IMG/VR virus record: IMGVR_UViG_3300027906_000178
Span: 1 to 21,568 of that record
Length of the DNA stretch: 21,568 nucleotides
Direction: 5' to 3' (one strand)
DNA from: a virus
Shown: positions 3,572 to 16,830 of the stretch, piece by piece
How positions within the stretch are numbered: position 1 is the stretch's first letter
Layout of the letters: every line of letters starts with the position of its first letter
Made by a program: the position numbers and the translations under genes
Notes under the pieces: generated by a model
What the model was told of the DNA's origin: nothing
Databases searched by the model: none
The model's input: only the letters and a program-made list of their open reading frames with translations

Positions 3572-4078
3572 TTACTTAAAGACAACCCCAACAAGTTTCA
3601 TGAATTGTGCTTTACCACCCTTGTTGATAATATCTTCCATCTTCTTTTTAGTATCTGGTCTTACCTTTTCAAGAGCTTGAGTTAGTGCAGATGCAGTAAA
3701 CAAATCAACTCGCACACTTCCATCTTTTAATTTAATCTTATTGTTTTGTTTGTCTTTAACAATCTTTTTAAGAACATCTACGTTTGCTTCGTTTAGATAC
3801 TCTTCACCAAAGTCATCTATATTTTCTTTTACAGATTTTCTAAATGCCTGTTCTCTTTTTGCTCTTAACTCACTCATTCTTCTAACAAATGCACGAGCCT
3901 CTTTAGTACGACCATCATATGGATTTTTCTGTATTTCTTTTTGTTTCTTTTTACTTACTGCATTGGGTGCCATATCAACTCCACCAGCAGAGACAGAATT
4001 TGTTGGTGCATCTTCGTTTTTGATTCCCAACATCTCATCTTCGTAAAACTTTTTCATTATGTCACTAAATTTTGTCAT
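3572..4078 (-). CDS. Hypothetical phage protein with conserved C-terminal module
   Basis: This 168-residue, lysine-rich and soluble protein starts MTKFSDIMKKFYEDEM. The middle (45-90) is a very basic helical region with NPYDGRTKEARAFVRRMSEL. The C-terminal 70 residues (LNEANVDVLKKIVKDKQ, then RVDLFTASALTQALEKV, ending GGKAQFMKLVGVVFK) look like a compact helical module that I recall from several proteins of marine T4-like phages, apparently linked to virion functions. Its ATG overlaps the stop of the gene before it (ATGA). I cannot assign a function; structural or assembly roles are plausible from context. Confidence 0.7.
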   Translation of the reverse strand: MTKFSDIMKKFYEDEMLGIKNEDAPTNSVSAGGVDMAPNAVSKKKQKEIQKNPYDGRTKEARAFVRRMSELRAKREQAFRKSVKENIDDFGEEYLNEANVDVLKKIVKDKQNNKIKLKDGSVRVDLFTASALTQALEKVRPDTKKKMEDIINKGGKAQFMKLVGVVFK

Positions 4079-5072: not shown

Positions 5073-5468
5073 TTAAGAAATTTGTGCAAATACCTTGTGT
5101 GTTCCAGTTGCAAGTTTTTCATATACGAAATTAATACTTCTGCCACTCTCAGTTTCGTTAACTACTTCTTCTGGGGCACTGTCAGTATCTTTTCCATAAA
5201 CTCCACCATGTTTTACTAGAGGTACAGAAATTTCTCCTTGTTCTCCAGTAAATTGAACATCACCAAAATTTATTCCAACTCTCATTAGTTTGTTTCTTAA
5301 TTCATCTACGGCTTTCTCTGGATTTAAATATTCTCTAATTCCTATAGAACCAACAAATGCATTAAGTTTTTCAATAACAGAATCATCAGACAAATCCATC
5401 AAGTTACCGTCTTCATCAACAGCATTTTGATGTTCGTCCAAAGATGTGTATTCTAAAAACGTCTTCAT
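5073..5468 (-). CDS. Conserved small phage protein with CTS-like N-terminus
   Basis: This 131-residue acidic protein starts MKTFLEYTSLDEHQ. The first 12 residues resemble the T4 capsid-targeting leader (MKTYQEFIAE) and end in L-D-E, which fits the L/I-x-E rule of the T4 prohead protease. The rest (LNAFVGSIGIREYLNPEKA, then DELRNKLMRVGINFG) matches my memory of an uncharacterised small protein in marine T4-like phages. The C-terminal part is beta-rich. The ATG overlaps the stop of the 56-residue gene upstream. The function is unknown; capsid localisation is inferred from the leader only. Confidence 0.7.
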   Translation of the reverse strand: MKTFLEYTSLDEHQNAVDEDGNLMDLSDDSVIEKLNAFVGSIGIREYLNPEKAVDELRNKLMRVGINFGDVQFTGEQGEISVPLVKHGGVYGKDTDSAPEEVVNETESGRSINFVYEKLATGTHKVFAQIS

Positions 5469-5635
5469 TCTTTATCTCCATGTTCTTCGTCAAAACCATC
5501 ATCTCCATAGATTTCTTGAAGAGGTTGTTTCTTTGTTTCTTTTTTTACTGGTGCAGATTTTTCCACTGGAGCAACCTCTTTAGGTTGTTTTACCATTGGA
5601 ACACCACCAGCACCATATACAATATTATCACCCAT
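5465..5635 (-). CDS. Short hydrophilic phage protein (56 aa)
   Basis: This 56-residue frame starts MGDNIVYGAGGVPMVKQP and ends DDGFDEEHGDKE. It has a strong ribosome site, AAGGAGAT, 6 bases before the ATG, and its stop overlaps the next ATG by four bases. The middle is a Lys/Pro/Val-rich disordered stretch (about 17-38) and the tail is acidic. The gene exactly fills the gap between the fibre-like protein and the 131-residue protein. The function is unknown. A small virion-associated or chaperone-like peptide is possible. Confidence 0.7.
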   Translation of the reverse strand: MGDNIVYGAGGVPMVKQPKEVAPVEKSAPVKKETKKQPLQEIYGDDGFDEEHGDKE

Positions 5636-5646
5636 GAATTATCTCC

Positions 5647-6393
5647 TTATGATATTGTTACACCATTTGATGATACAACAACCCAATCACTTCCAGTGAA
5701 AGCTAGGGTTGCACTGTCACCAACATCATTCCAAACAATAGAAGTTGAAACTTGAGCTGCAAGTAGATTACCACCAGCCTGTGTCATTGTTGCATTACCA
5801 CCATCTGTTTTCATAACAATAGTTTTCATTTGACCAACAGCACCATCAGCAAGTGTAATAGCATTTGCACCAGTTGTGACCAATAATGTCATTGGGTGAG
5901 TTAATGAAACAGCACCAGCACCAGTAAGAGTTTGTGGTGTAAAGATGTTACCTCTGTGTCCTACAACAGTCCATTCACTGTTTGTAAACACTAACATAAC
6001 TGCATCACCTTCTGCACCAAAGGTTAAAGAATCATAACCATTTCTTGCAGCTGGTGTAAGAGTATAAGTTCTAGCATTTGTTGGTGCAGTTGTCATAACA
6101 ACTATTTTGATTTGACCATTTGTTCCAGCAGCCAAAGCTCCAGTTGCACTACCACTTAAAGATGCACCGTCAAGAGTTGTTATTGAGGTAGTTACATTTA
6201 CTGCTGTACTACCAGTAATGTTTTGTGCAGTACCATCTAATGCAACATAAGTTGGAATGTTATTGAAGATGTTTGCAACACTAATCTTTTTGTTAACTGG
6301 TGTTCCAGATGGGTCATCAATCACATGAATTAAATCTTCTCCAGCGATTGCATTACCTAAATCGGTAAGTGCTGTAATTTTCTTATCAGCCAT
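5647..6393 (-). CDS. Virion fibre-like structural protein with internal duplication
   Basis: This 248-residue protein starts [20 protein letters not shown]; this opening, with [17 protein letters not shown], is typical of phage fibre or appendage proteins that attach by the N-terminus. It is rich in Gly, Ala, Thr, Val and Asn and low in charge. The body contains a duplicated unit of about 95 residues: GQIKIVVM at 93-100 with [12 protein letters not shown] at 134-145, and again GQMKTIVM at 187-194 with [12 protein letters not shown] at 230-241. Such repeats suggest a beta-rich, probably trimeric, surface protein. A good ribosome site (AGGAGAA) precedes the ATG. Whether it is a tail fibre, head fibre or decoration protein cannot be told. 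Confidence 0.75.
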
Positions 6394-6406
6394 TTATTTT
6401 CTCCTA

Positions 6407-6631
6407 TTAACCCTTTTTCTTGGGAATGCTACTGCCAGTATCCTCTGGCACCACCTTTAATTCAGAAAGGAACAAATCACATTGCTGGATTGCACCACTA
6501 ATTGCGTGATGTTGTGCAACGAGATTTGACCTTTCTGTATCAAGTTTATTTAAACTATCTTTCACCGTTTCCAAATCACTTTGTAGTGTTTGTTTACGAA
6601 TATTAATTTCAGTCTCAGTCAATTGAGGCAT
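6407..6631 (-). CDS. Small coiled-coil protein
   Basis: This 74-residue frame starts MPQLTETEINIRKQTLQSDL. Residues 5-58 form an almost unbroken amphipathic helix with heptad-like spacing (LETVKDSLNKLDTERSNLV). The last 15 residues are a loose tail (EDTGSSIPKKKG). TGGAGAT precedes the ATG at a good distance. It lies between two fibre-like structural genes, so a structural accessory or chaperone role is plausible. No named family is recognised. Confidence 0.65.
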   Translation of the reverse strand: MPQLTETEINIRKQTLQSDLETVKDSLNKLDTERSNLVAQHHAISGAIQQCDLFLSELKVVPEDTGSSIPKKKG

Positions 6632-6669
6632 TATGTATCTCCATTATTTAAAACATTATATTATATATA

Positions 6670-8247
6670 TTAACTATCTGGGGTTGCGATATCCTCTGCA
6701 TCACCAGAAATACTTGAAGCGGCAACTAGAGTTTCATAGTGAACTCTACCAGCACGACCACCAGTACCTACAGTTTTCTTAACCCAACCAATGTGAGCAA
6801 CTTCTCTACTATCAGTATCACCACTGTCACCTAAACCTAGATGTGCAGTTACAGATGCAGTTGCACCAGTAAATGAGTGTGCAGAACCACCAGATGCAGT
6901 AGCAGTTAAGTCAATTTGAGTTCCAGCAACAGCGTTTGCATAAGTTGTTGCAAGTTTCATTCTGTTTGATGTACCAGATTTGATTGCAAAGTAAACAGTA
7001 CCATCTGTTAGGTCTGCTTGAGCACCAGAACCACCTTGTGCATATGTCATTGCATCACCAGTTACAAGTACAGCGTACAATGCAGCTGGGATAACAATCT
7101 CATCTGTTGAAGTTTTAAGAACTGCTGATTGTTGCAAGTTCAAACTTCCAGTACCATTAGCAGCTGCGACTGTGACTGTAGGTGCAGACTGATAGTCAGA
7201 ACCAACATTCGTTACTGTAATTCCAGTAACTTTACCACCAGAAGTAGTTGCAGTTGCAGTCGCTTGAGTACCCTCAAGTGTCTGTGCATTGTTACCAGTT
7301 CCAGTTAAAGTAATTTCAGTACCAGCTTGTGCGTTTGAAAGTGAAGAAGCAAGTTTGATATTGTCTTCATCTACTCTAATTGCAAAGTATTCAGTATTAT
7401 CAGTAAGACCAGCAAGTGCAGTTCCACCACCATCTTGATATGTTAAAGAAGTACCAGTTCTCATATTGTGACTTGCAATCTCAATTGAGTCAGTACCAGT
7501 AGTAACTTTTGCAGTTGCAATAGTTCTTACAGTTGGTGCTGGGATTGTTACTGCTGGGGCAGAACCGTGATAGGTGTTACCACCAACATAGTCAATACCA
7601 CCAAGACTTGAAGTTCCAACACTTACACTAGCAATATTATCCAAACCACCAAGTGATTCAGCAGATGTAATACCTAAAACATTACTATCAATAACAGCAG
7701 TAGTAGTGCCGTCAACTGTAGTTTTTCCGTGTCCATTAATAGGTGGTCTTGTTACTGTGCAAGATGAACCACTATTTGTAGATGGTGTAAAAGCATTAGT
7801 TGCAGTGAAAGCTTTAGTGGATGTACCACCAAAAGTTTGTGCGTTGTTTCCACTACCAGTTAAGTTAATTGCAGTACCACCTTCAGTTGCACTTATTTTA
7901 AATTTATCAGCGTCTACAACGCTTTGAACAAAGTAAGTTGTGTCATCTTCTAAACCAGCGATTGCAGTTCCACCATTTGCTTCATAATGTACATTTTGGT
8001 TTGCTACGAAACCGTGGTTTGTAATTGTTATTCTTTCGTTACCAGTTGATACAGCTGATGTTGCAACAGTTCTTTTAGGTTCAATATCTGCAACCCTTAC
8101 TTTATCACCGTTGTCATCAATGACAATATCACCGACTTTAATTTCGGATGTATCTGCACTTGAGTTTCCTTGTACTATTGCACTTGCGTTTGTAAGTGTG
8201 TAAGCACCAGTTAATGCAGAACCATCATTCATACTCCATGAGCTCAT
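6670..8247 (-). CDS. Virion structural protein with three internal repeats
   Basis: This 525-residue protein is rich in Ala, Gly, Thr and Ser, nearly free of Lys clusters and with a single Cys, like surface structural proteins. It starts MSSWSMNDGSALTGAYTLTN. A unit of about 70-80 residues occurs three times, at about 70-139, 252-324 and 381-460. Each has a GG/GS-x-A-xx-LxD-x-T-x-YF core (LEDDTTYF, LTDNTEYF, LTDGTVYF) followed by an ISA/KLA stretch and a Gly/Thr-rich close. The C-terminus, GRAGRVHYETLVAASSISGD, is a motif I recall from cyanophage structural proteins. A late octamer lies about 37 bases before the ATG, and AAGGAGA is the ribosome site. A fibre or whisker-like role is likely. 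Confidence 0.75.
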   Translation of the reverse strand: MSSWSMNDGSALTGAYTLTNASAIVQGNSSADTSEIKVGDIVIDDNGDKVRVADIEPKRTVATSAVSTGNERITITNHGFVANQNVHYEANGGTAIAGLEDDTTYFVQSVVDADKFKISATEGGTAINLTGSGNNAQTFGGTSTKAFTATNAFTPSTNSGSSCTVTRPPINGHGKTTVDGTTTAVIDSNVLGITSAESLGGLDNIASVSVGTSSLGGIDYVGGNTYHGSAPAVTIPAPTVRTIATAKVTTGTDSIEIASHNMRTGTSLTYQDGGGTALAGLTDNTEYFAIRVDEDNIKLASSLSNAQAGTEITLTGTGNNAQTLEGTQATATATTSGGKVTGITVTNVGSDYQSAPTVTVAAANGTGSLNLQQSAVLKTSTDEIVIPAALYAVLVTGDAMTYAQGGSGAQADLTDGTVYFAIKSGTSNRMKLATTYANAVAGTQIDLTATASGGSAHSFTGATASVTAHLGLGDSGDTDSREVAHIGWVKKTVGTGGRAGRVHYETLVAASSISGDAEDIATPDS

Positions 8248-8283
8248 TAGATTTCTCCTTAGTTTATAAGTATATACTACCTC

Positions 8284-8291
8284 TATTTATG
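8284..8291 (-). promoter_or_regulatory. Late-type promoter octamer CATAAATA
   Basis: The minus strand reads CATAAATA in the 45-base gap between the HAD phosphatase gene and the repeat-bearing structural gene, 37 bases ahead of that gene's ATG. A perfect 10-base palindrome, AGTATATACT (8269-8278), lies between the octamer and the ribosome site. This is the best-placed late promoter for an abundant structural protein in the window. Confidence 0.55.
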
Positions 8292-8292
8292 T

Positions 8293-8823
8293 TTATTTGA
8301 AACCTAACCGTTTCAATTGTGCAATAGTATCACTAGGAGATGTGTGGTGAACTCCCATACCACCTTTTGCTTTCCATTCGTTTATATTTTTGATATAATC
8401 GTCTATCAATAAGTTAGGTTTACCATCCGTTGTCATTGCGTATTTCTGTTTATCCTCACGCATAACTAGATGAATTCTACTTTTTTTATTTAGTTTTGCA
8501 TTTTTACTCAACCATTTATACTTACCCTTTCTAGAGTTTGCATCTTTAGTAGAGTATGCAGATAGAATATGTGCATCATATTTATCAATAAATGACCACA
8601 TTCTTTTTGCACCAGGCATCCATTCTAAACTTTCCCAGAAATCTTTCTTTGCAGATATCTTAGGCCATTTAGTTCCTTTCTCCGCTTTTGGAAAAGGAAC
8701 ACCCAATACTTCCTCTGCACCTTTTAGAAAGTCACAGAGTACCATATCCATGTCACAATAGATAGTCGGTAAATTTTCAACCGACTCCGTGACTTCGTTT
8801 AATACATTATATAAGTTTTTCAC
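8293..8823 (-). CDS. HAD-superfamily phosphatase, 5'(3')-nucleotidase-like
   Basis: This 176-residue enzyme uses GTG as start codon (AAGGTG is the ribosome site; the nearby ATG is followed at once by a stop). The HAD motifs are clear: motif I YCDMDMVLCDF at 22-32 (Asp24 and Asp26), motif II ILSAYS at 86-91 (Ser88), a likely motif III Lys near 125-127, and motif IV LLIDDYIKN at 138-146 (Asp141 and Asp142). The pattern is closest to the 5'(3')-deoxyribonucleotidase branch, which removes phosphate from nucleotides; small phosphoesters or polynucleotide ends are alternatives. The N-terminus MKNLYNVLNE resembles the T4 capsid-targeting leader and ends in L-N-E, so the enzyme may be packaged. It follows the 1007-residue gene directly. 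Confidence 0.75.
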   Translation of the reverse strand: MKNLYNVLNEVTESVENLPTIYCDMDMVLCDFLKGAEEVLGVPFPKAEKGTKWPKISAKKDFWESLEWMPGAKRMWSFIDKYDAHILSAYSTKDANSRKGKYKWLSKNAKLNKKSRIHLVMREDKQKYAMTTDGKPNLLIDDYIKNINEWKAKGGMGVHHTSPSDTIAQLKRLGFK

Positions 8824-8825
8824 AT

Positions 8826-11800
8826 TTACACCTTATTATTAGTTTCTTTTATTTTAGGCATTTTTACAGACGTTTCAACTGGAGTTACCTCTTTACCAGT
8901 ATCCGTCATATTCTTTGTACCATTTTTCTTCTCTTTTGTCAAGGTCTTTTTTTCATTCTTTTCTTCTTCATGGTCTGGAGTATGTTTCTCTCCCCACATT
9001 TGAAGAACTGCATCTCTCAAAGAACCTTTTTTAGTTTCGTGGTATCTTTCAATTGACTCACCCTTTACAGCTTTAGAAACTGCTTTACGTCTTTTGTGTA
9101 GAAATTTATCAGAATCATCAACATCTCCATCATTGTCAATGTCTTTATCTTTTCTGTCCTTAAACTTCTTCTTGACTGCTTTTGGTTGAACTGCATCAAG
9201 ACCGTCACCATCATCAGACTTGTCATTCTTGTTAGTTTCAGTTCTATTCGCTTTTAGACGATTATCACCTTCTTTAACTCTTTTCTTAGTTCCGTCTGCT
9301 TGGACAAACTCTTTCATTTCTCCATTTTCATCATAGTCTTCACACTTATAAGTTTTACCAGCAACTACGAAAGTTTCATCACCATTTTCTCTTGCAGCTT
9401 GTAGAGCGGCACCAAATGCGTTACCTTCATCTTTTTTATCAGATGCTTCTGTCCACATTTCCAAAATAGTATCTTTTAATGATTTAATCATTTCATTCTC
9501 CTCTTTATACATATTCAACTCAAATGGTTTTGAACCACCTTTGTTATAAACTTGGATTTGTAGATTTCCACCTTTACCTTTGAGTCTGTATTTGTTTGTT
9601 TTACCCTCAGCTGGTTTCTTCGGGCCAGTTGCGACTTTACTGTCAATTTCTTTTGGGTCTACAGTAATACCCAATTTCTTCTTTGCATAGTCATATGCGT
9701 GTTGCATTGCATCAGAAAAAGTCTTGTGATATAAGTCATACTTCTCATCAAGTTCAACTTCTTCACTCATATTTAATTTTTTAATTTTGAATAACTTTTT
9801 AGTATAATCTACACCCTTATTTCCAAAAAATTCTTTTGCAGCTTTTCCAAAAGCACCAATAACTACATCTTGGTCATCTTTGTTTAATTTCTGTACATAA
9901 TTATAAAATGCTTTAAAATTACCTTGCATCGCCAAGTCATTTAATTTCAGTGGATGTATCCTATCAAGTTTTGCTTTAACAGATGGTTCGTATAAATTGC
10001 GACCAATTTTATTTCTCATCATTGCAGCTGGGCCTTCACTTGACTTTCTAGTAGTTCCAAATTCTGGTGGACTTTCTAATTCTTCTGGGGGCCACTTCTC
10101 ATCAAGTTCAACTTCTTCCTTTACCAGTGCTTGAATATCTTTACCAGCAATATAGTCTGGAAGAACCTTCTCCAAAGACTTTTTAATGTCCATAGATTTC
10201 ATTGCATCTTTTTTAAATTTGTCTGCAAATGATTTCATCTGTTTATCTTTTTTCATCTTTGCAACAATAGAGTCAATCTTCATAGAAAGGTCTTTCATCT
10301 TACCTTCATCAAGGTCTTCACTCATTTTAATAACTGCATCAACTAGTTTAGTTGCTTCTTTCTTTGAAACTTTTAAACCTTTCATCACAAACTCAATACC
10401 TTGTTCCCTATTCTTAGATGGGCCCATAAGGTCTTGTGCTTTTATCAGAAGGTCTTTCATTTTACCTTCATCAAGGTTTTCATTTGCTTTCTTCAAAGCA
10501 GCTGCAACCTCTGGATAATCTGATAATCCATCTCTGATTTTTTCAATTGCCTTTACAGCGCCTGAATAGTTACCTTGTTTGTATCTAGGGTCATTTGCAA
10601 TACCGATTGCCATTTTAACTTCTTTACTAGAAGGTCTTCTTGATTGAAACTTTTCTTTCATTTCAAAGATTGCATCAAGAATTTGATTTATGACTTCTCT
10701 TGGTTCTGTATCTGTAGCACCATGTTTAGAGTATTTGTTTTGAACTTTCATCATATGTTTTCTTGCAGTTTCTTTATCTTTCATTCTAACTGCTTTGTGT
10801 ATCTCTTTGTTCATGTCTGCATTTGCTTTATCTGAACCAGGCGAATCTTCGTCATCAAATAATTGAAAATCAAACTTAGCGTTAGGTTTCAATTTGTTCT
10901 TTTCTTCAAGTTCTAACTCTTCACCCATTTTAAGAGAACCAATTTTCTTTGCAACATTTAACATATCTCTTTTTGATTTACTAATCATTGCAACAAACTT
11001 TTCTTTGTCTCTTGGTTTCTGGATTTTCATATGTGCTTTGGTCATCATATCTAGTATTTTTGGGTCTACTTTTTCTTTCTTACCATTTGCAAATTCAATA
11101 GGCATATTACCTCTAACATCCATCGCTTTTCTCATTTGCATGATGATGTTCTTGTCTGCGGCTTTCTTGTCAGCATCAGTTGCATCTAAATCTAAATCAG
11201 CAGGGTCAATCGCTTCTTCAACTTCTTCCATACGTTTACCTTGAGTTGCACTTGTGTTAGTTGGAAACTTATCCATCCCATCTGGTAATGGTCTATTAAT
11301 CATCATGTCACTCTTCTTGTTATCTGGAAGAGGTTTTGTTAGAGTAACAACTCTACCTTTTTCTCTTCTTGCCATATCCTTTGCATCAGATTCCTTAGAT
11401 GCAAAACCAATAACTAATCCTTTTTTATCTACAGCGGCAAACTTGTAAGCCATACCTTCATCAAGTTCTTCTACTTCAATCTCTTCAATAATCTCATGAT
11501 TGGTTAAGGAATACTTTTCTCTGATATCATCAATAGATGCAGCCATATCACCAACTGCAAATGTTACCTTACCATCTCTTCTGTATAGAAATTTCTTTAC
11601 ACTAGTAGGACTATCTTTTCTTGCAAGTGTAATCTTTTCAACTCTACCTTTGTTTACTACATTCTTTGATTTAACAATGTATTCGATAAAATCTTTACCT
11701 CTTTCCAAGGTGGAACTATGTTTTATTTTAACTGTATCACCCTTTTTAAGTTTATCAAAAATCTTGTTTAACTTAGGGTCATTCATTTTTAATTCATTCA

Positions 11801-11849
11801 TTTGCATCTGTGCAAGTGTCTGACTCATTGGTTGTCCATATTTACTCAT
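8826..11849 (-). CDS. Large modular protein with repeated L-D-E linkers
   Basis: This 1007-residue, Lys/Glu/Asp-rich protein has no membrane span. Several compact segments are separated by acidic linkers: EEIEVEELDEG at 121-132, EELELEEK at 310-317, ENLDEGKMKDL at 457-467, EDLDEGKMKDL at 511-521, KEEVELDEK at 577-585 and SEEVELDEK at 695-703. Segments I recall as free-standing modules in marine T4-like phages include 239-307 (MRKAMDVRGNMPIEFANG), 409-456 (VKMAIGIANDPRYKQGNYSG) and 704-782 (YDLYHKTFSDAMQHAYDYAK). A helix with LxDxxLxMWxE occurs twice (791-801, 945-954). Residues 903-914 form an EF-hand or dockerin-like loop with Asp at loop positions 1, 3, 5 and 12. The linkers fit the L/I-x-E cleavage rule of T4 prohead protease, so I infer a processed internal head or core protein. 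AAGGAAA precedes the ATG. Confidence 0.8.
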   Translation of the reverse strand: MSKYGQPMSQTLAQMQMNELKMNDPKLNKIFDKLKKGDTVKIKHSSTLERGKDFIEYIVKSKNVVNKGRVEKITLARKDSPTSVKKFLYRRDGKVTFAVGDMAASIDDIREKYSLTNHEIIEEIEVEELDEGMAYKFAAVDKKGLVIGFASKESDAKDMARREKGRVVTLTKPLPDNKKSDMMINRPLPDGMDKFPTNTSATQGKRMEEVEEAIDPADLDLDATDADKKAADKNIIMQMRKAMDVRGNMPIEFANGKKEKVDPKILDMMTKAHMKIQKPRDKEKFVAMISKSKRDMLNVAKKIGSLKMGEELELEEKNKLKPNAKFDFQLFDDEDSPGSDKANADMNKEIHKAVRMKDKETARKHMMKVQNKYSKHGATDTEPREVINQILDAIFEMKEKFQSRRPSSKEVKMAIGIANDPRYKQGNYSGAVKAIEKIRDGLSDYPEVAAALKKANENLDEGKMKDLLIKAQDLMGPSKNREQGIEFVMKGLKVSKKEATKLVDAVIKMSEDLDEGKMKDLSMKIDSIVAKMKKDKQMKSFADKFKKDAMKSMDIKKSLEKVLPDYIAGKDIQALVKEEVELDEKWPPEELESPPEFGTTRKSSEGPAAMMRNKIGRNLYEPSVKAKLDRIHPLKLNDLAMQGNFKAFYNYVQKLNKDDQDVVIGAFGKAAKEFFGNKGVDYTKKLFKIKKLNMSEEVELDEKYDLYHKTFSDAMQHAYDYAKKKLGITVDPKEIDSKVATGPKKPAEGKTNKYRLKGKGGNLQIQVYNKGGSKPFELNMYKEENEMIKSLKDTILEMWTEASDKKDEGNAFGAALQAARENGDETFVVAGKTYKCEDYDENGEMKEFVQADGTKKRVKEGDNRLKANRTETNKNDKSDDGDGLDAVQPKAVKKKFKDRKDKDIDNDGDVDDSDKFLHKRRKAVSKAVKGESIERYHETKKGSLRDAVLQMWGEKHTPDHEEEKNEKKTLTKEKKNGTKNMTDTGKEVTPVETSVKMPKIKETNNKV
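9740..10118 (-). repeat. Exact 25-base direct repeat encoding EEVELDEK
   Basis: The 25 bases at 9740-9764 recur exactly at 10094-10118, 354 bases apart and in the same frame. They encode the E-E-V-E-L-D-E-K linker on both sides of one module of the 1007-residue protein. Exact DNA identity, where synonymous codons could differ, points to recent duplication, gene conversion or recombination through the linker. Confidence 0.8.
10287..10482 (-). repeat. 34-base near-identical direct repeat encoding LDEGKMKDL
   Basis: The bases 10287-10320 and 10449-10482 match at 32 of 34 positions, 162 bases (54 codons) apart and in frame. They encode the E-N/D-L-D-E-G-K-M-K-D-L segment of the 1007-residue protein. 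The two differences are C/T changes. They bracket one short helical module, as the 25-base pair brackets another. Confidence 0.8.
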
Positions 11850-11860
11850 ATCTTTTTCCT

Positions 11861-13627
11861 TTAGTTATCTACTGTAGGTAGTTTTGATAACATCTTTTCA
11901 TATGTACTATTTAGTTTTTTCAACCACTCATCACCATATCTCTCTTGATATAGTTTAATAGTTTCGTCTGAAGAATACCACAATTCAATAGATTCATTAG
12001 ATGCTGATTTAATTCCTAATTGTTGAGAGGAATTACCTCTTATTTTTTTTACAAGAGTATTATATGATTCTTTCTGGTCATATTGTGCCATTAGATTCAT
12101 AGGTAACATACCCTTTTTAACTAGTTTATTAATATAATCAATAAGTGGAAATGCCGAACTCATTCCAAACATTGTTGCAACTCTAGATGCATAGAATTTA
12201 TTTGAGTGTTTATCACCTTGGTCTTTTACCATCTGAAGGTATGATTGCAACATTTTTGCATAACCTTTTGGATGAGTTGCTCGGTGAATTACACTCTTTA
12301 TAAGAGCTGGTAGATTGATTTCTTCTATACTCTCACCTTTTGCCATTTTAGTTAGAGTTGCATAGTAGATTGATTCACCTTCCTCTTTTCCATACCTATC
12401 AATAAAATCTTTTTTGTCAATATCTTTTTCGTATTTCTTTAACTTATCTTTTTCACCGTCAGTAAGTTTTCTTTCTTGTGCAGAAAGTTTTGCAACTCTT
12501 TCTTGGTCTTGTGCTATTCGTAATTGAAGTTGTGCAACCCTTTTCGCTTTTTGTAATTTACCAAATTCATCTTTTTTCTTAGCTTGGTCAGACTTTGGTT
12601 TCTCTTTATCGTCTTGTTCATTTATCTTTGAGGTATCAGTTGCCATAAATCGACCTCTCCTCAAAGTTCTAAATGGAATTTTCATTTCATTACCAAATAT
12701 TTCTGCTGGGTGTATAATGTTAAACGTAACTATTTGACTAGAGTTGTCAATACCCACTAACTCCATATCTATCTCTTTATAATTCTTACCTTTGAATGAA
12801 TATCCAAATGCAGTCACAAGTTTCTGAACCTTACCACCAGCAACGGCTTTCTTTGCTCTTTTTTCATTTAAGTCGTGTAACCAAACTTTTTTCATACCTT
12901 CTTCTAATACAACATAGTTTGTTCCTTTACGAACAATAGTACCTTCTTCACCAAGTTTTGTTTCGACAACATCTCCTACATTCCAGATTTCCCCACGAAT
13001 ATATGCATCTCTTAATACTTCTTCATCAGACCAGTTTTGTTCATTAACACCCATAAATTTACGAACATCACTAAACAATTTTGCACTATCTTTAAACCCT
13101 TTAGGTAGACCAAGTTTAAATTGTTCAAACTCATTCTTCTGTGCGGCTTCTCTCATCTTAGATGCAGACATTCCAGTAACACCTTCTGCATCTGGGTCAC
13201 GCTCTCCAGCAGATACTACCTTAATATCATCAAATCCGTAATAACCGTGTCTACCATCTACACCATTATATGTGTTAAGTAATCTATCAAACTCTTTAAC
13301 TCTATCAGAACCAACAACCATAATGATTGCTCTATGTCCTTTGTTATGCAATTCTACTGCAATGTCAAATACATTTCGTGCTTTACTTACGATAATAGTC
13401 TTTGCATATTTTGGAAACATCTTCTTCATATATGCTACTTTTCTTCCGTGTGGAAGTGGGTCTTTTTTAGGATTTTGGGAATGTGATGGATACACATACA
13501 TTGGTGAACCAGCAACTTTATTTTTGTCAAGTGCTTTGATTAACTTTTCATGTCCAGTTGTTGGAGGATTAAATCTACCAAATGTAAATACAGCAGTATC
13601 ACCTTTTGCTTCAGAAAATGTTTTCAT
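11861..13627 (-). CDS. Nucleotidyltransferase with long multi-domain extension
   Basis: This 588-residue protein has an N-terminal domain (about 10-190) with the hallmarks of the HxGH/TxGH nucleotidyltransferase fold that includes NMN and pantetheine-phosphate adenylyltransferases and cytidylyltransferases: FGRFNPPTTGH at 16-26, VGSDRVKEF at 105-113, and MSASKMREA at 153-161, equivalent to the ISSTxxR motif. These enzymes move a nucleotide monophosphate from NTP to a phosphorylated small molecule; the substrate cannot be read here. A small beta domain follows (215-252, VGDVVETKLGEEGTIV), then a second beta-rich region (262-330), a Lys/Glu helical linker (340-405), a KDFIDRYGKEEGESIYYAT motif (406-424) and a C-terminal helical domain. 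The opening MKTFSEA resembles the T4 capsid-targeting leader. It is co-transcribed with a basic protein and a ligase-like protein. Confidence 0.75.
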   Translation of the reverse strand: MKTFSEAKGDTAVFTFGRFNPPTTGHEKLIKALDKNKVAGSPMYVYPSHSQNPKKDPLPHGRKVAYMKKMFPKYAKTIIVSKARNVFDIAVELHNKGHRAIIMVVGSDRVKEFDRLLNTYNGVDGRHGYYGFDDIKVVSAGERDPDAEGVTGMSASKMREAAQKNEFEQFKLGLPKGFKDSAKLFSDVRKFMGVNEQNWSDEEVLRDAYIRGEIWNVGDVVETKLGEEGTIVRKGTNYVVLEEGMKKVWLHDLNEKRAKKAVAGGKVQKLVTAFGYSFKGKNYKEIDMELVGIDNSSQIVTFNIIHPAEIFGNEMKIPFRTLRRGRFMATDTSKINEQDDKEKPKSDQAKKKDEFGKLQKAKRVAQLQLRIAQDQERVAKLSAQERKLTDGEKDKLKKYEKDIDKKDFIDRYGKEEGESIYYATLTKMAKGESIEEINLPALIKSVIHRATHPKGYAKMLQSYLQMVKDQGDKHSNKFYASRVATMFGMSSAFPLIDYINKLVKKGMLPMNLMAQYDQKESYNTLVKKIRGNSSQQLGIKSASNESIELWYSSDETIKLYQERYGDEWLKKLNSTYEKMLSKLPTVDN

Positions 13628-13628
13628 A

Positions 13629-14033
13629 TCAACCCTCCCTCTGAGCGAGTGAAGATTTTGCTTTCTTTACTCTCTCTCCTTCTTTTGCTTTTAAACCACG
13701 CAAGAGTTTCTTGGTTATCTTTTGAATAACTTTTGCTTTCTTAGCAACAACTTTCTGGTCTATTTGAATTCTTTTTTGTAATGGGAGTTCATTATAGTTA
13801 ACATTAGGCCCCAACTGTTTCTTGATGATTATCATCTTTGCTTGTTTTGCAGCTGATTTTGAAAGAGAAGCTGTATCTCTCCTTCGGAGAAGAGCTCTTT
13901 TCTTCTTTATTTTTGTGGAAGATTTCTTTGCAAGAAGCTTCATTCTTCTACCCATCTCTCTCCGTCTTTGCATTGGAGATTTAGTAGGTTTGATTGGTGC
14001 CTTCTCGCACAACATTTCTTTTAAAGTTTTCAT
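13629..14033 (-). CDS. Very basic small protein, putative DNA-binding internal head protein
   Basis: This 134-residue protein has about a third of its residues as Lys or Arg, with clusters such as KSPMQRRREMGRRMKLLAKK (19-38) and TKIKKKRALLRRRD (40-53), and a long helical C-terminus. It starts MKTLKEMLCEKAPI. The first ten residues resemble the T4 capsid-targeting leader and end in L-C-E, a fit to the prohead-protease rule. T4 internal proteins that carry this leader are also small and basic and are packaged with DNA. I recall this basic family from other marine T4-like phages without a function. Its start overlaps the end of the ligase-like gene by four bases, and the nucleotidyltransferase gene follows after one base. 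Confidence 0.75.
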   Translation of the reverse strand: MKTLKEMLCEKAPIKPTKSPMQRRREMGRRMKLLAKKSSTKIKKKRALLRRRDTASLSKSAAKQAKMIIIKKQLGPNVNYNELPLQKRIQIDQKVVAKKAKVIQKITKKLLRGLKAKEGERVKKAKSSLAQREG

Positions 14034-15271
14034 TTATCCCATGCCTTTATTGCAGTAAAGTTGTTAAAACTAAATTCCATTCTATCAACTAACTTTACAG
14101 CGTCACCAGACACCCTATCAATTGCAACATAACCCTCTGGGTTAACCACTTTAAATCCATTACTAGTCTTGATAAAGGTATCTGTTAAACCTTTAACACT
14201 ATTTAGTTTTTTAACAATCCCCATCTTTGCATTTACAAGGTGCATCTGAAATGCAGTCACTTGTTGCAGATTGGGTAACATCTTTTTAAATTCTCTAACG
14301 TATTCTATCTTCTTTGTTTCCAGAACATCTTTGGATTTCTGGGTCTTTAGTTTTTCAATCTCTTTTTGAAAATGATTCTCTACATGAGTAACGTAACCAT
14401 TTGCGTGTCCTTTGGGGTCTGAAACAGCCTGCCCAGCACGAACCTTGGTATTGTTATATGTCTTATAACTTGCACCAGCTAACTTACCAGTAAGTGAATC
14501 TTGTAACCTCAAAAACTTCTTGAGTAGTGGTGCATTAATTCTTTGGAATGTTTTACCAGCGTTAGATAAGTGTGCAGTAACCTCAGCAGTTTCTTTTGAA
14601 GTCATAGTTGCTTTACCAGAAACATCTTTGTAAGTTGCATCATCCATCCATACTGTTTTTGATTTTGTAAGTCCAGAAATATTTGCACCAAATGATGCTT
14701 TCATATCTTGTAATGTAGAACCTTTATATGTTGTATGCCATACCACACCAATCTTTGCACTATTGATACTTCTACCAATATCAGATGTAGGGTCAACTGC
14801 ATATACAATTGTATTAGGTTGGAATGTGATAAATGACTTACCATCAATCTTATCTTTACCTTTGTCCTCAGAAGTAAACATCAAGTCACCTTGAAGAACT
14901 CCCTTGATACCAAGTTTTGAAAACTCTGTAAATGATGTTGTAAACTTAGATTTCAAAGTACCACTTAGTTCAGTTGCATCTGCAATTTCTTTGACACTTT
15001 TATACAGTAATGGTTTTTCATTGAATACTGATTTCTTTGCGACAAAGAACTTACCATCACTTGGGTCTTCTCCAGCAAAGATTGCAGGAGCACCATCCCA
15101 TTTGACTGTCATATTGACTGAAGACCTTGCTTCTCCAGCAAGCATATCTCTTAGGGAACGAACAAAGTTAATTGCAGCTCTACCCCCAGGCACACCAAAG
15201 TTTAATATCTCATCTTCGATATGTTCTAAGTGTAGGTTCTTACCTTCTTTTCCCTCTAGTAAATTCATCAT
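14030..15271 (-). CDS. Ligase-superfamily-like protein (KxDG nucleotidyltransferase motifs)
   Basis: This 413-residue protein has motifs in the order and spacing expected of covalent nucleotidyltransferases (DNA/RNA ligases, capping enzymes). A motif I-like VKWDGAPAIF lies at 56-65, with Lys57 as the would-be AMP-linked residue. KFFVAKKSVF is at 74-83 and GVLQGDLMF at 124-132, in the place of motif III. A motif IV-like PEGYVAID lies at 378-385 (Glu379) and a motif V-like AVKLVDRMEF at 391-400 (Lys393). The conserved frame (HLEHIEDEILNFGVPGG, ITFQPNTIVYAVDP) matches my memory of an uncharacterised cyanophage family, possibly DUF6267; I could not check this. Between motifs III and IV lies a helical insert of about 150 residues. 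The N-terminus MMNLLEGKE contains an L-L-E site. The start overlaps the upstream stop as TAATG. Confidence 0.65.
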   Translation of the reverse strand: MMNLLEGKEGKNLHLEHIEDEILNFGVPGGRAAINFVRSLRDMLAGEARSSVNMTVKWDGAPAIFAGEDPSDGKFFVAKKSVFNEKPLLYKSVKEIADATELSGTLKSKFTTSFTEFSKLGIKGVLQGDLMFTSEDKGKDKIDGKSFITFQPNTIVYAVDPTSDIGRSINSAKIGVVWHTTYKGSTLQDMKASFGANISGLTKSKTVWMDDATYKDVSGKATMTSKETAEVTAHLSNAGKTFQRINAPLLKKFLRLQDSLTGKLAGASYKTYNNTKVRAGQAVSDPKGHANGYVTHVENHFQKEIEKLKTQKSKDVLETKKIEYVREFKKMLPNLQQVTAFQMHLVNAKMGIVKKLNSVKGLTDTFIKTSNGFKVVNPEGYVAIDRVSGDAVKLVDRMEFSFNNFTAIKAWDK

Positions 15272-16593
15272 TAGTCACCATACTTCGCATAAGGCCCAGA
15301 TAAATCTGATGATGCAGATGCATATCCAGCGATTGCATCACATACCTCATTTTGTTTTCTACTGTTAATCATACTTGAAACTATAAACATTGCCCAATAC
15401 TTAGAGTATAAGAAATCTGGTTTCTCTTTGTCAAGTAATTTATTAAATTCTTCTTGTTCCATCTTTTTCTTAGTTTCTAATGAAAGATACAATTCATAGA
15501 ACTCTTGTAAGAATTGTGGAGTAGGTTTAGATGCAAGACCCTTAACTTGTTTTGCAGATAACTTATTTGAAATTCCAGTAATCTTTTCTAATATTGCAAG
15601 GATAATACCACCACCGATTTTACCAGCGGCCGCAGTTCTACCCTTAACCTCACCTTGGAATTGAAAGTTACCGAATGTTCTAAGTTGAATGTTTCCAGCA
15701 CCCTTCATCTGAAAATACATATCTTTTGAATTAAAGAAATCTCTGGTATATAAAGTATAACCACCAAATGTAACTGGTCTACGAATAAATCCAGTTATAT
15801 TATATTCACCAAAGGGAACAGAACCTTTTGCTTTTTTAAGTGAAATACCTACCAAATTTTTTGCATCATACATTTCTTTGAAATGATTATTAAACTCACC
15901 AAGAGTTTCAAACTGTGAGAAGTTAGGAGTAAAACCTTTCTTCACTGCCCATATATCTGCTGGACTCCATTTGTTAATATTAGAAAATGCTTTTTCTTTT
16001 CTATTAAGTTCTTTGAATTTACCTTCAATATCTTTCACAAGAGGAGAACCTTTGTGATAAGTAAAACTTCCAGACATTTTCTTTTTCATAAGTTGTGCGA
16101 TTAAAGTAGATGACTCAATCCATGAATCATCTAGTGCAGCTTCTATTTTTGATAATTGTGTGTCTATTTCAAAGTCTTTAGATTTTAATGCTTTGAAATC
16201 TATGTCTTCTGGTTTTACACCACTTTGCATTTCAGAACAGTAAACACATTGCATACATTCTGTTATGTCTGTATTTTCTGCACCCCCACCAGAACCACGA
16301 CCACCACCAAACATAGATGTTTTCATAACATCTTTTAGTGTGATTTCTACACCGTCTTTTGTAAGGAATACTTTTTTGAATTTTCTATTAAAATAAAATG
16401 CAGTATCTAAGTCACCACTTTCAAAAGCAACTTTATCTACATCATTAATGAAAGAAAGAGGAGTTGTGCCTTTAGAAGTTTCCAAAGGTGTACCTTTTTC
16501 AATTGCAGTTTTTAATATGTTTATGTTGTCTCTTTTCAGAAGTTGCGTTTTATCCATAGAAGCTTCTGAAAGAAAACCTTTAAATCCTAACAT
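15271..16593 (-). CDS. Unknown protein with Gly-rich loop and Cys cluster
   Basis: I do not recognise this 440-residue protein with certainty. It starts MLGFKGFLSEASMDKTQLL, whose first ten residues resemble the T4 capsid-targeting leader and end in L-S-E. A glycine-rich loop (MFGGGRGSGGGAENTDITEC, 94-113) runs straight into a CxxCxxC cluster (Cys113, Cys116, Cys119). NKWSPADIWAVKKGF at 207-221 looks like a conserved core motif, and FQFQGEVKGRTAAAGKIGGG at 310-329 is another Gly/Lys-rich segment. A helical C-terminal region follows. It is the first gene after the late-type octamer at 16622 and is translationally coupled to the ligase-like gene, so the two may act together. Confidence 0.7.
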   Translation of the reverse strand: MLGFKGFLSEASMDKTQLLKRDNINILKTAIEKGTPLETSKGTTPLSFINDVDKVAFESGDLDTAFYFNRKFKKVFLTKDGVEITLKDVMKTSMFGGGRGSGGGAENTDITECMQCVYCSEMQSGVKPEDIDFKALKSKDFEIDTQLSKIEAALDDSWIESSTLIAQLMKKKMSGSFTYHKGSPLVKDIEGKFKELNRKEKAFSNINKWSPADIWAVKKGFTPNFSQFETLGEFNNHFKEMYDAKNLVGISLKKAKGSVPFGEYNITGFIRRPVTFGGYTLYTRDFFNSKDMYFQMKGAGNIQLRTFGNFQFQGEVKGRTAAAGKIGGGIILAILEKITGISNKLSAKQVKGLASKPTPQFLQEFYELYLSLETKKKMEQEEFNKLLDKEKPDFLYSKYWAMFIVSSMINSRKQNEVCDAIAGYASASSDLSGPYAKYGD

Positions 16594-16620: not shown

Positions 16621-16830
16621 TTATTTATGCGTTAGGAAACTTGGAAAACCGTAGTCACCAAATGGTTTATGTTCTGTCATCCATTTAGCAACAACCTTTG
16701 CATCATCTTCAAAATCGTATTCTCTAATAATCTTTCTAGAGGGAAGTTCGATTACTTCCCACTTTTTAGATTCTACGTTGATGTCGTAGTGATATTTTAT
16801 GTTAGACCTTGATGTCCGAAAATTTCTCAT
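16621..16830 (-). CDS. Small conserved phage protein
   Basis: This 69-residue protein runs from the ATG at 16830. An upstream in-frame ATG at 16893 would add 21 residues but would overlap the helicase gene by 92 bases; the later start overlaps it by 29. The core KKWEVIELPSRKIIREYDFE, followed by DDAKVVAKWM and a GDYGFPSFL ending, resembles a short conserved protein I recall from T4-like marine phages. It is beta-strand then helix in character, with no membrane span or catalytic motif. No strong ribosome site is visible, so it may depend on coupling to the helicase gene. The function is unknown. Confidence 0.6.
   Translation of the reverse strand: MRNFRTSRSNIKYHYDINVESKKWEVIELPSRKIIREYDFEDDAKVVAKWMTEHKPFGDYGFPSFLTHK
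16622..16629 (-). promoter_or_regulatory. Late-type promoter octamer CATAAATA at the module border
   Basis: The minus strand reads CATAAATA, overlapping the stop codon of the 69-residue gene and lying 29 bases ahead of the ATG at 16593. It stands exactly between the replication genes and the block of proposed head-cargo genes, where an early-to-late switch would be expected. Confidence 0.5.

Follow-up and report, generated by a model that had tools for sequence, protein, structure and literature searches.

Background

In bacteriophage T4, internal protein IPIII carries an N-terminal capsid-targeting sequence (CTS) in which mutagenesis has assigned targeting to residues 4 and 7 and processing to residues 8 and 10 (PMC9026906). 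Among cyanophages, S-SM1 virions contain the cytidylyltransferase T4-GC190 (PMC3037559), genes 89, 90, 91, 92, 93, 95 and 97 of a syntenic block in S-SCSM1 are annotated as virion proteins (PMC9602691), and the S-CREM2 virion list includes a cytidylyltransferase with the leader MKNFSSFLTE plus other leader-bearing enzymes (PMC10665884, Table 3). The authors of the S-SCSM1 study name the cytidylyltransferase NMNAT (PMC9602691). The present analysis concerns a related gene block in IMG/VR record IMGVR_UViG_3300027906_000178, a 21.6-kb fragment of a T4-like myovirus (all 21,568 nucleotides of which are termed the window), where several proteins begin with short leaders resembling the T4 CTS. A T4-CTS-like head-loading system acting on a late cargo operon is, with high probability, the best explanation of this block.

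The cargo block and its leaders

The closest complete relative of the window is Methylophilales phage Melnitz (MZ577097, Kyanoviridae), whose DUF6267 protein is 70% identical to that of the window. Both share the gene order UvsX, 2OG oxygenase, gp41 helicase, cargo block, and then small structural and lysis genes. The block contains the following genes:

15271..16593, minus strand: p440, 440 aa, unknown fold, first gene of the operon (PHROG 1462; orthologue S-SCSM1 gp90)
14030..15271, minus strand: DUF6267 protein, 413 aa, with an invariant KWDG (PF19782, E=7e-99)
13629..14033, minus strand: small basic cargo protein, 134 aa, isoelectric point (pI) 11.3
11861..13627, minus strand: cytidylyltransferase/NMNAT-like protein, 588 aa (PHROG 395, E=2.4e-65)
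8826..11849, minus strand: modular protein, 1007 aa, probable head polyprotein
8293..8823, minus strand: HAD-family deoxyribonucleotidase-like protein, 176 aa, GTG start (PHROG 2643, E=2.5e-26)
5073..5468, minus strand: p131, acidic, 131 aa, no family match

A sequence-only reading of the window had pointed to six leader-like N-termini and proposed that their bearers are loaded into the head. All six were found where it had placed them, on the minus strand (a slash marks a cut site, predicted unless stated otherwise):

16564..16593, minus strand: leader MLGFKGFLSE/ of p440, with F4, F7, L8 and E10 like T4 IPIII
15254..15271, minus strand: leader MMNLLE/ of DUF6267
14004..14033, minus strand: leader MKTLKEMLCE/ of the basic protein, fitting the exact T4 rule given below
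13610..13627, minus strand: short leader MKTFSE/ of the cytidylyltransferase (N-terminus MKTFSEA)
8794..8823, minus strand: leader MKNLYNVLNE/ of the HAD protein, fitting the exact T4 rule
5433..5468, minus strand: leader MKTFLEYTSLDE/ of p131 (in relatives MKNFSKFITE/ and MKTFKQYMKE/)

Conservation of the leader across relatives

A loose L-x-E criterion is weak alone, and the claim was therefore tested by comparison across relatives. Orthologues of every window gene were drawn from IMG/VR relatives (80 loci for DUF6267, 20 for the 1007-aa protein), with start codons set by a rule (Shine-Dalgarno score and distance) that may slightly bias leader length and leaves residue content unaffected. 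A fixed grammar was then applied to distinct N-termini: E at positions 6-14, a hydrophobic residue at P3 (third before the cut) and another at residue 3 or 4. The cargo families keep this grammar when aligned, as seen in DUF6267 (44/44), the cytidylyltransferase (34/34), p131 (15/15), the basic protein (30/31) and the HAD protein (18/20), against 11-32% in shuffles. The replication proteins, which the sequence-only reading expected to lack the leader, show it in 0/21 cases for gp41 and at the shuffled level of about 15% for UvsX (15%) and MazG (16%); the remaining controls are p120 (0/14), p211 (0/3), 2OG (29%) and p101 (46%, where the N-terminal string is a fixed sequence). Within DUF6267, 45 different leader strings (for example MINLLE, MLNFDLIIE, MISFAQLTE, MINFSSYLTE and MLNFSGFLAE) share the ending [LI]xE, and the body that follows hardly varies; pairwise identity averages 0.42 for leaders and 0.79 for the body, and P3 and P1, the residue before the cut, are fixed in 53/53. 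As a matter of sequence comparison, this conservation is decisive for the reality of the leader pattern.

It is very improbable that these are cytoplasmic enzymes whose first helix is simply amphipathic and in which L-x-E arises by chance from the common residues Leu and Glu. What speaks for such an origin is the frequency of the loose pattern, a hydrophobic-x-E near the N-terminus, which occurs in 43 of 259 S-SCSM1 proteins (~17%) and is not enriched in the virion set (10/48 versus 33/211, p = 0.39); applied to this single genome, the loose rule did not separate virion from other proteins and was dropped as evidence. A position weight matrix of the leader ranked the S-SCSM1 proteins weakly (p=0.08). 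Chance would hardly leave P3 and P1 of DUF6267 fixed while leader length and sequence vary, place the same grammar on unrelated bodies with leaders swapped close to the site, keep the exact T4 rule out of the non-cargo control families, or bring orthologues into virions.

The exact rule derived from T4, M-x-x-PHI-x-x-PHI-PHI-x-E (PHI, hydrophobic; expectation from shuffles), is fitted by 3 of the 23 coding sequences in the window (p440, basic and HAD) against 0.07 expected (p = 5e-5), and by 6 of 218 S-CREM2 proteins against 0.39 expected (p=3.5e-6). Mass spectrometry (MS) found five of these S-CREM2 proteins in virions (p=0.003), namely a SAM lyase (MKDFDSFLEE), gp13 (MKDLHSFLTE), a kinase (MKRFDAFLTE), gp136 (MQTFSMFFSE) and the cytidylyltransferase already mentioned. 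All non-cargo control families, including UvsX, MazG, 2OG and p101, gave 0 matches. In the window, DUF6267, the cytidylyltransferase and p131 have spacing shorter or longer than the exact rule; among relatives, all four T4 positions are exact in 21/44 DUF6267 and 7/15 p131 sequences. Furthermore, 19/19 distinct cyanophage cytidylyltransferases begin with an MKxFxxFLxE-type string, near the T4 leader MKTYQEFIAE.

Leaders are also exchanged between bodies. In the first cargo slot, before DUF6267, the gene varies among phages and many versions open with the same leader type: MLGFKGFLSE (window), MQGFKTFLSE (Melnitz), MEGFKKYLRE, MLRFKGYLQE, MKGFTNFVSE, MKSFNQFNE and MYNFSNFLVE. Between p440 and Melnitz gp15, blastp aligns residues 1-13 at 69% identity (weak, E=0.06), and the bodies lack convincing homology. 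Conversely, short (6-12 aa) and long (about 26-33 aa) leaders are exchanged on the same bodies, so that the leader of a given body can be short in one phage and long (MSIRKYYRQLNP...ELTE) in another, with homology starting near the predicted cut. The pairs L058 and L105 (77% identical; homology onset 27 and 7, predicted sites 30 and 10), L031 and L109 (84%; onset 28 and 7, sites 30 and 9) and L072 and Melnitz (57%; onset 24 and 4, sites 30 and 10) illustrate this, and p440-homologous bodies in L052, L093, L078 and L024 have a different, longer leader. A cleavable targeting peptide behaves in this way; a domain does not.

Virion proteomics and the prohead protease

Orthologues of the cytidylyltransferase and of p440 occur in published virion proteomes (PMC3037559, PMC9602691, PMC10665884). 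The S-SM1 cytidylyltransferase begins MKKFSAFLNE/A; S-SCSM1 gene 90 is the MS-detected orthologue of p440, and gene 91 is the cytidylyltransferase, with the leader MKSFLQFLKE. The S-SCSM1 virion set used here is the 48 flagged proteins counted in the record, against 45 stated in the paper (PMC9602691). In S-PM2, the cytidylyltransferase is fused to the DUF6267 C-terminus without a leader, and it was missed by proteomics (PMC3037559); this is consistent with leader dependence and only suggestive, as further head and tail proteins also escaped detection in S-PM2. For DUF6267, HAD, the basic protein and p131, packaging may be expected from leader, synteny and late expression.

A candidate protease for such cutting, which the sequence-only reading had called for, is encoded by the relatives: Melnitz (E=1.5e-31), S-CREM2 and S-SCSM1 each have a member of the gp21-type prohead protease family PF03420, the corresponding region lying outside the span of the window. 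The maturation sites of the major capsid protein (MCP) are FGSFLTE/A in T4 gp23 (experimental) and, as read from sequence, SGSFLAE/A in S-SCSM1, DSAFLSE/A in Melnitz and GTGLLTE/A in S-CREM2, and leader ends such as FLSE/A, FLTE/A and FLKE/A resemble the MCP sites of the same phages. The leader could in principle serve as a general signal for degradation or for the membrane, or dock its protein onto the baseplate or some other assembly, given that N-terminal amphipathic peptides have other uses and MS gives no location within the virion. The match to four T4 CTS positions and to the MCP maturation site of the same phages makes this most improbable, as does the finding that none of the tail protein families tested carries the leader. 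Head loading draws support from the conserved grammar, gp21 in relatives, virion orthologues and the four positions critical in T4.

Two virion-detected proteins, S-CREM2 gp160 (L013:18342-19235) and S-SCSM1 gp97 (L008:33121-33306), contain 24 aa that nearly duplicate the N-terminal arm of the mature MCP of their own phage, scoring 95 and 83 respectively (shuffled maxima 38 and 36; next protein in the proteome 40 and 39). By imitating the MCP arm, this stretch may act as a second signal for packaging. In the window, p168 (3572-4078; MTKFSDIMKKFYEDE...EDAPTNSVSAGG), a possible further head protein, resembles the MCP arm weakly (APTNS); in Melnitz, the score of the homologous gp30 exceeds those of all shuffles.

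Late promoter

The sequence-only reading had overlooked both a late promoter and the 1007-aa modular protein. Two late-promoter-like sites were located:

16622..16629, minus strand: late-promoter-like CATAAATA, directly before the cargo operon
8284..8290, minus strand: second late-promoter-like site, ATAAATA, before a 525-aa protein (12/12 relatives)

The T4 form WATAAATA at first seemed absent from the block, and the promoter is detected with the cyanophage form NATAAATA. In 37/37 distinct loci, this T4/cyanophage-type late promoter sits in the interval separating gp41 from the first cargo gene, whichever gene that is, and sites of this type are expected by chance at about 0.02 per 100 bases per strand. 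In Melnitz, the motif precedes cargo gene 15, gp22, MCP and sheath, and not gp41 or UvsX. On promoter evidence, the cargo block would be expressed late, together with the head genes.

Observations weighing against head loading

Alongside the absence of loose-rule enrichment in S-SCSM1, several observations count against the head-loading reading. The authors of the S-SCSM1 and S-CREM2 studies caution that abundant cytoplasmic proteins may co-purify (PMC9602691, PMC10665884), and among marine phages there is no N-terminal peptide that documents a cut at any of these sites. The exact T4 rule is not enriched in the S-SCSM1 virion set (3 proteins match, 1 flagged), and S-SCSM1 gp30 (MKTFKQFMSE/) and UvsX (MDFLKDVVKE) fit it and are not flagged as virion proteins. 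DUF6267 lacks a leader in the Synechococcus phages S-PRM1 (L006:14998-16200), S-PM2 (L007:14992-15570) and S-SM1 (L121:22295-23269). The HTVC008M cytidylyltransferase homologue starts MKTLKELLRKK, without a leader, and HTVC008M gp460 has no NATAAATA within 110 upstream bases. Lastly, p131 is acidic, unlike the other cargo. Regarding co-purification, the presence of the leader itself argues against contamination, which the authors had left open. As for DUF6267, one clade may package the protein and another keep it in the cytoplasm, which may offer a natural control for proteomics.

The 1007-aa modular protein

The largest product of the block begins with a leader of a different type and contains predicted internal sites:

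11793..11849, minus strand: N-terminal stretch MSKYGQPMSQTLAQMQMNE/, a different leader type; the adjoining module is found after IEIDE/, LDLDE/ or MNE/, depending on the phage
11457..11459, minus strand: predicted internal site Glu131, EELDE/GM (module B, 11/11 contexts)
10902..10904, minus strand: predicted internal site Glu316, EELELEE/K
10467..10469, minus strand: predicted internal site Glu461, NENLDE/GK (module F, 4/4)
10305..10307, minus strand: predicted internal site Glu515, EDLDE/GK (module G, 7/7)
10098..10100, minus strand: predicted internal site Glu584, EEVELDE/KW
9744..9746, minus strand: predicted internal site Glu702, EEVELDE/KY (module I, 19/23)

Six strong [LIV][DE]E junctions are present, and E[LIV][DE][LIV][DE]E occurs 4 times against 0.009 expected. 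The modules of this protein reappear in other phages, in different orders and genes, and [LIVM]xE precedes modules A (21/24), B (11/11), E (19/26), F (4/4), G (7/7), I (19/23) and M (44/47) over a background of 9-16%. Because the window's own sites helped to define where the modules start, independent evidence comes from the other contexts and not from the window copy. Module M corresponds to DUF5824 and is found in the tail of the Melnitz cytidylyltransferase. At about aa 868-930, an EF-hand-like module combines a canonical EF-hand-like loop, DIDNDGDVDDSD, with a following basic helix; related versions occur in S-SCSM1, S-SM1, S-PRM1, S-PM2 and HTVC008M, and S-SCSM1 gp92, an annotated virion protein, contains both a related EF-hand-like module and EEVELDE. 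Neither this protein nor p440 was named by Pfam or NCBIfam.

From these junctions, the 1007-aa product is probably a head polyprotein cut by the prohead protease. There is an appreciable, though less than even, chance that the [LIV]-x-E stretches are instead flexible linkers that stay uncut: they are acidic and linker-like, and at modules C, D, J, K and N the boundary site is partly or wholly absent. The linker account fits less readily with the fourfold recurrence of the extended motif and with a site preceding the same module in differing contexts for A, B, G, I and M.

Charge, structure and function of the cargo

Apart from p131, the cargo proteins have pI values of 9.0-11.3, against 4.1-5.9 for gp43, UvsX, gp41 and MazG. 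The cytidylyltransferase scores 17.2 against PF01467 in the window, below the cut-off of 21, and above the cut-off in Melnitz. For the description of DUF6267 as ligase-like by the sequence-only reading, the support is KWDG, which is invariant in the alignment and typical of covalent nucleotidyltransferases, with no backing from the fold: the structure model (pLDDT 63, poor) gave no meaningful PDB match. The p440 model (pLDDT 80, fair), in which leader residues 1-9 are disordered, likewise had no meaningful PDB match, and profile searches of the PDB found nothing. A ligase activity for DUF6267 and a nuclease activity for p440 were both considered and neither was adopted.

The basic character of most cargo also bears on whether these proteins, once targeted to the prohead, have a part in assembling the head or condensing DNA, in the manner of T4 IPIII and gp22, rather than being injected as effectors. 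Such a role is unlikely but deserves serious weight, for T4 IPIII influences head assembly (PMC9026906) and the 134-aa protein and polyprotein modules resemble DNA-binding or structural fragments. The conserved enzyme motifs of the nucleotidyltransferase, HAD and DUF6267 speak for effectors, as do the first-slot bodies, which vary among phages as accessory effectors would.

Further leader-like N-termini

Several leader-like N-termini were noted elsewhere. Melnitz gp2 (L001:82-1131), a RimK-type ATP-grasp enzyme (MTQKFSQFITE/E), and Melnitz gp118 (L002:15855-16523), a P-loop protein (MKTFAELQE/G), are cargo candidates from outside the block, and a homologue of the latter lies within the HTVC008M block. 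S-SCSM1 gp30 (L012:44215-44535), in which the leader is followed by S, sits among structural genes. The virion-detected S-CREM2 gp12 (L116:7704-10313) has a longer leader ending ...LRFASFMAE/A; its label, CRISPR Cas9/Csn1, has no Pfam or NCBIfam match behind it.

Proposed mechanism and significance

Under head loading, the stretch 16629-8290 would be a late-transcribed operon of head cargo, its proteins being made with a short N-terminal leader that acts like the T4 CTS. The prohead core would be bound through hydrophobic residues around positions 4 and 7, and a gp21-type protease encoded elsewhere in the genome would cut after Glu in [LIVFM]-x-E, freeing the mature protein inside the capsid; the same protease would cut the 1007-aa module string into several pieces. 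The NMNAT-like enzyme, DUF6267, HAD, p440 and the basic protein would then enter the next host with the DNA. Cutting at the leader sites and packaging of every member are predicted steps, and injection is postulated on T4 precedent. As sister viruses are known to have some of these enzymes in their particles, the virus probably delivers an enzyme kit together with its DNA. A wider view, about as likely as not, is that the block is a payload cassette of CTS-swappable enzymes plus a recombining-module head polyprotein, in which one gene delivers several small mature proteins and cargo is gained by adding a leader or inserting a module between sites.

If correct, head loading would explain why cyanophage virion proteomes repeatedly include "non-structural" enzymes, NMNAT-like ones among them, findings that the authors could not separate from contamination. 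It would also provide a readable packaging code for abundant ocean phages (Kyanoviridae and methylophage relatives), making injected proteins predictable from N-termini and late promoters. The 1007-aa protein points to a layout that would be new, in which a head polyprotein is built of interchangeable modules, and the cargo proteins would be first candidates for pre-replicative host takeover or counter-defence; speculatively, an injected NMNAT could counter NAD+ depletion.

Comparison with known systems

The literature searched yielded no report of a CTS in cyanophages, the two terms co-occurring in a T4 review only. The nearest parallel is the T4 CTS of IPI, IPII, IPIII and Alt, which gp21 cuts. 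Shared features are a short leader with hydrophobic residues at 4 and 7, L/I at 8 and E10, a cut after Glu (predicted here), basic cargo, late expression, an encoded gp21-type protease and hypervariable cargo bodies. The window cargo differs in consisting mostly of enzymes, in an operon next to replication genes, and its group exchanges short and long leaders and includes a modular protein with internal sites; cutting here is predicted only. The virion NMNAT/cytidylyltransferase of S-SM1, S-SCSM1 and S-CREM2 is an orthologous enzyme from a syntenic block with the same leader type and virion MS, but those papers give it as packaged or as a possible contaminant, without describing a packaging signal. 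Ejection proteins of giant phages (SPN3US, phiKZ, 201phi2-1) are likewise non-structural head cargo whose propeptides are cut after Glu by the prohead protease; they differ in the A-x-E motif (SPN3US), the mostly much longer propeptides and the unrelated cargo. T4 gp22, gp67 and gp68, also cut by gp21, resemble the 1007-aa protein in that several internal Glu sites give small peptides, whereas the latter has discrete recombining modules and is not a scaffold, Melnitz having a separate gp22. What is new here, relative to these systems, is the extent of the arrangement in marine phages, with enzymes, swappable leaders and a module string.

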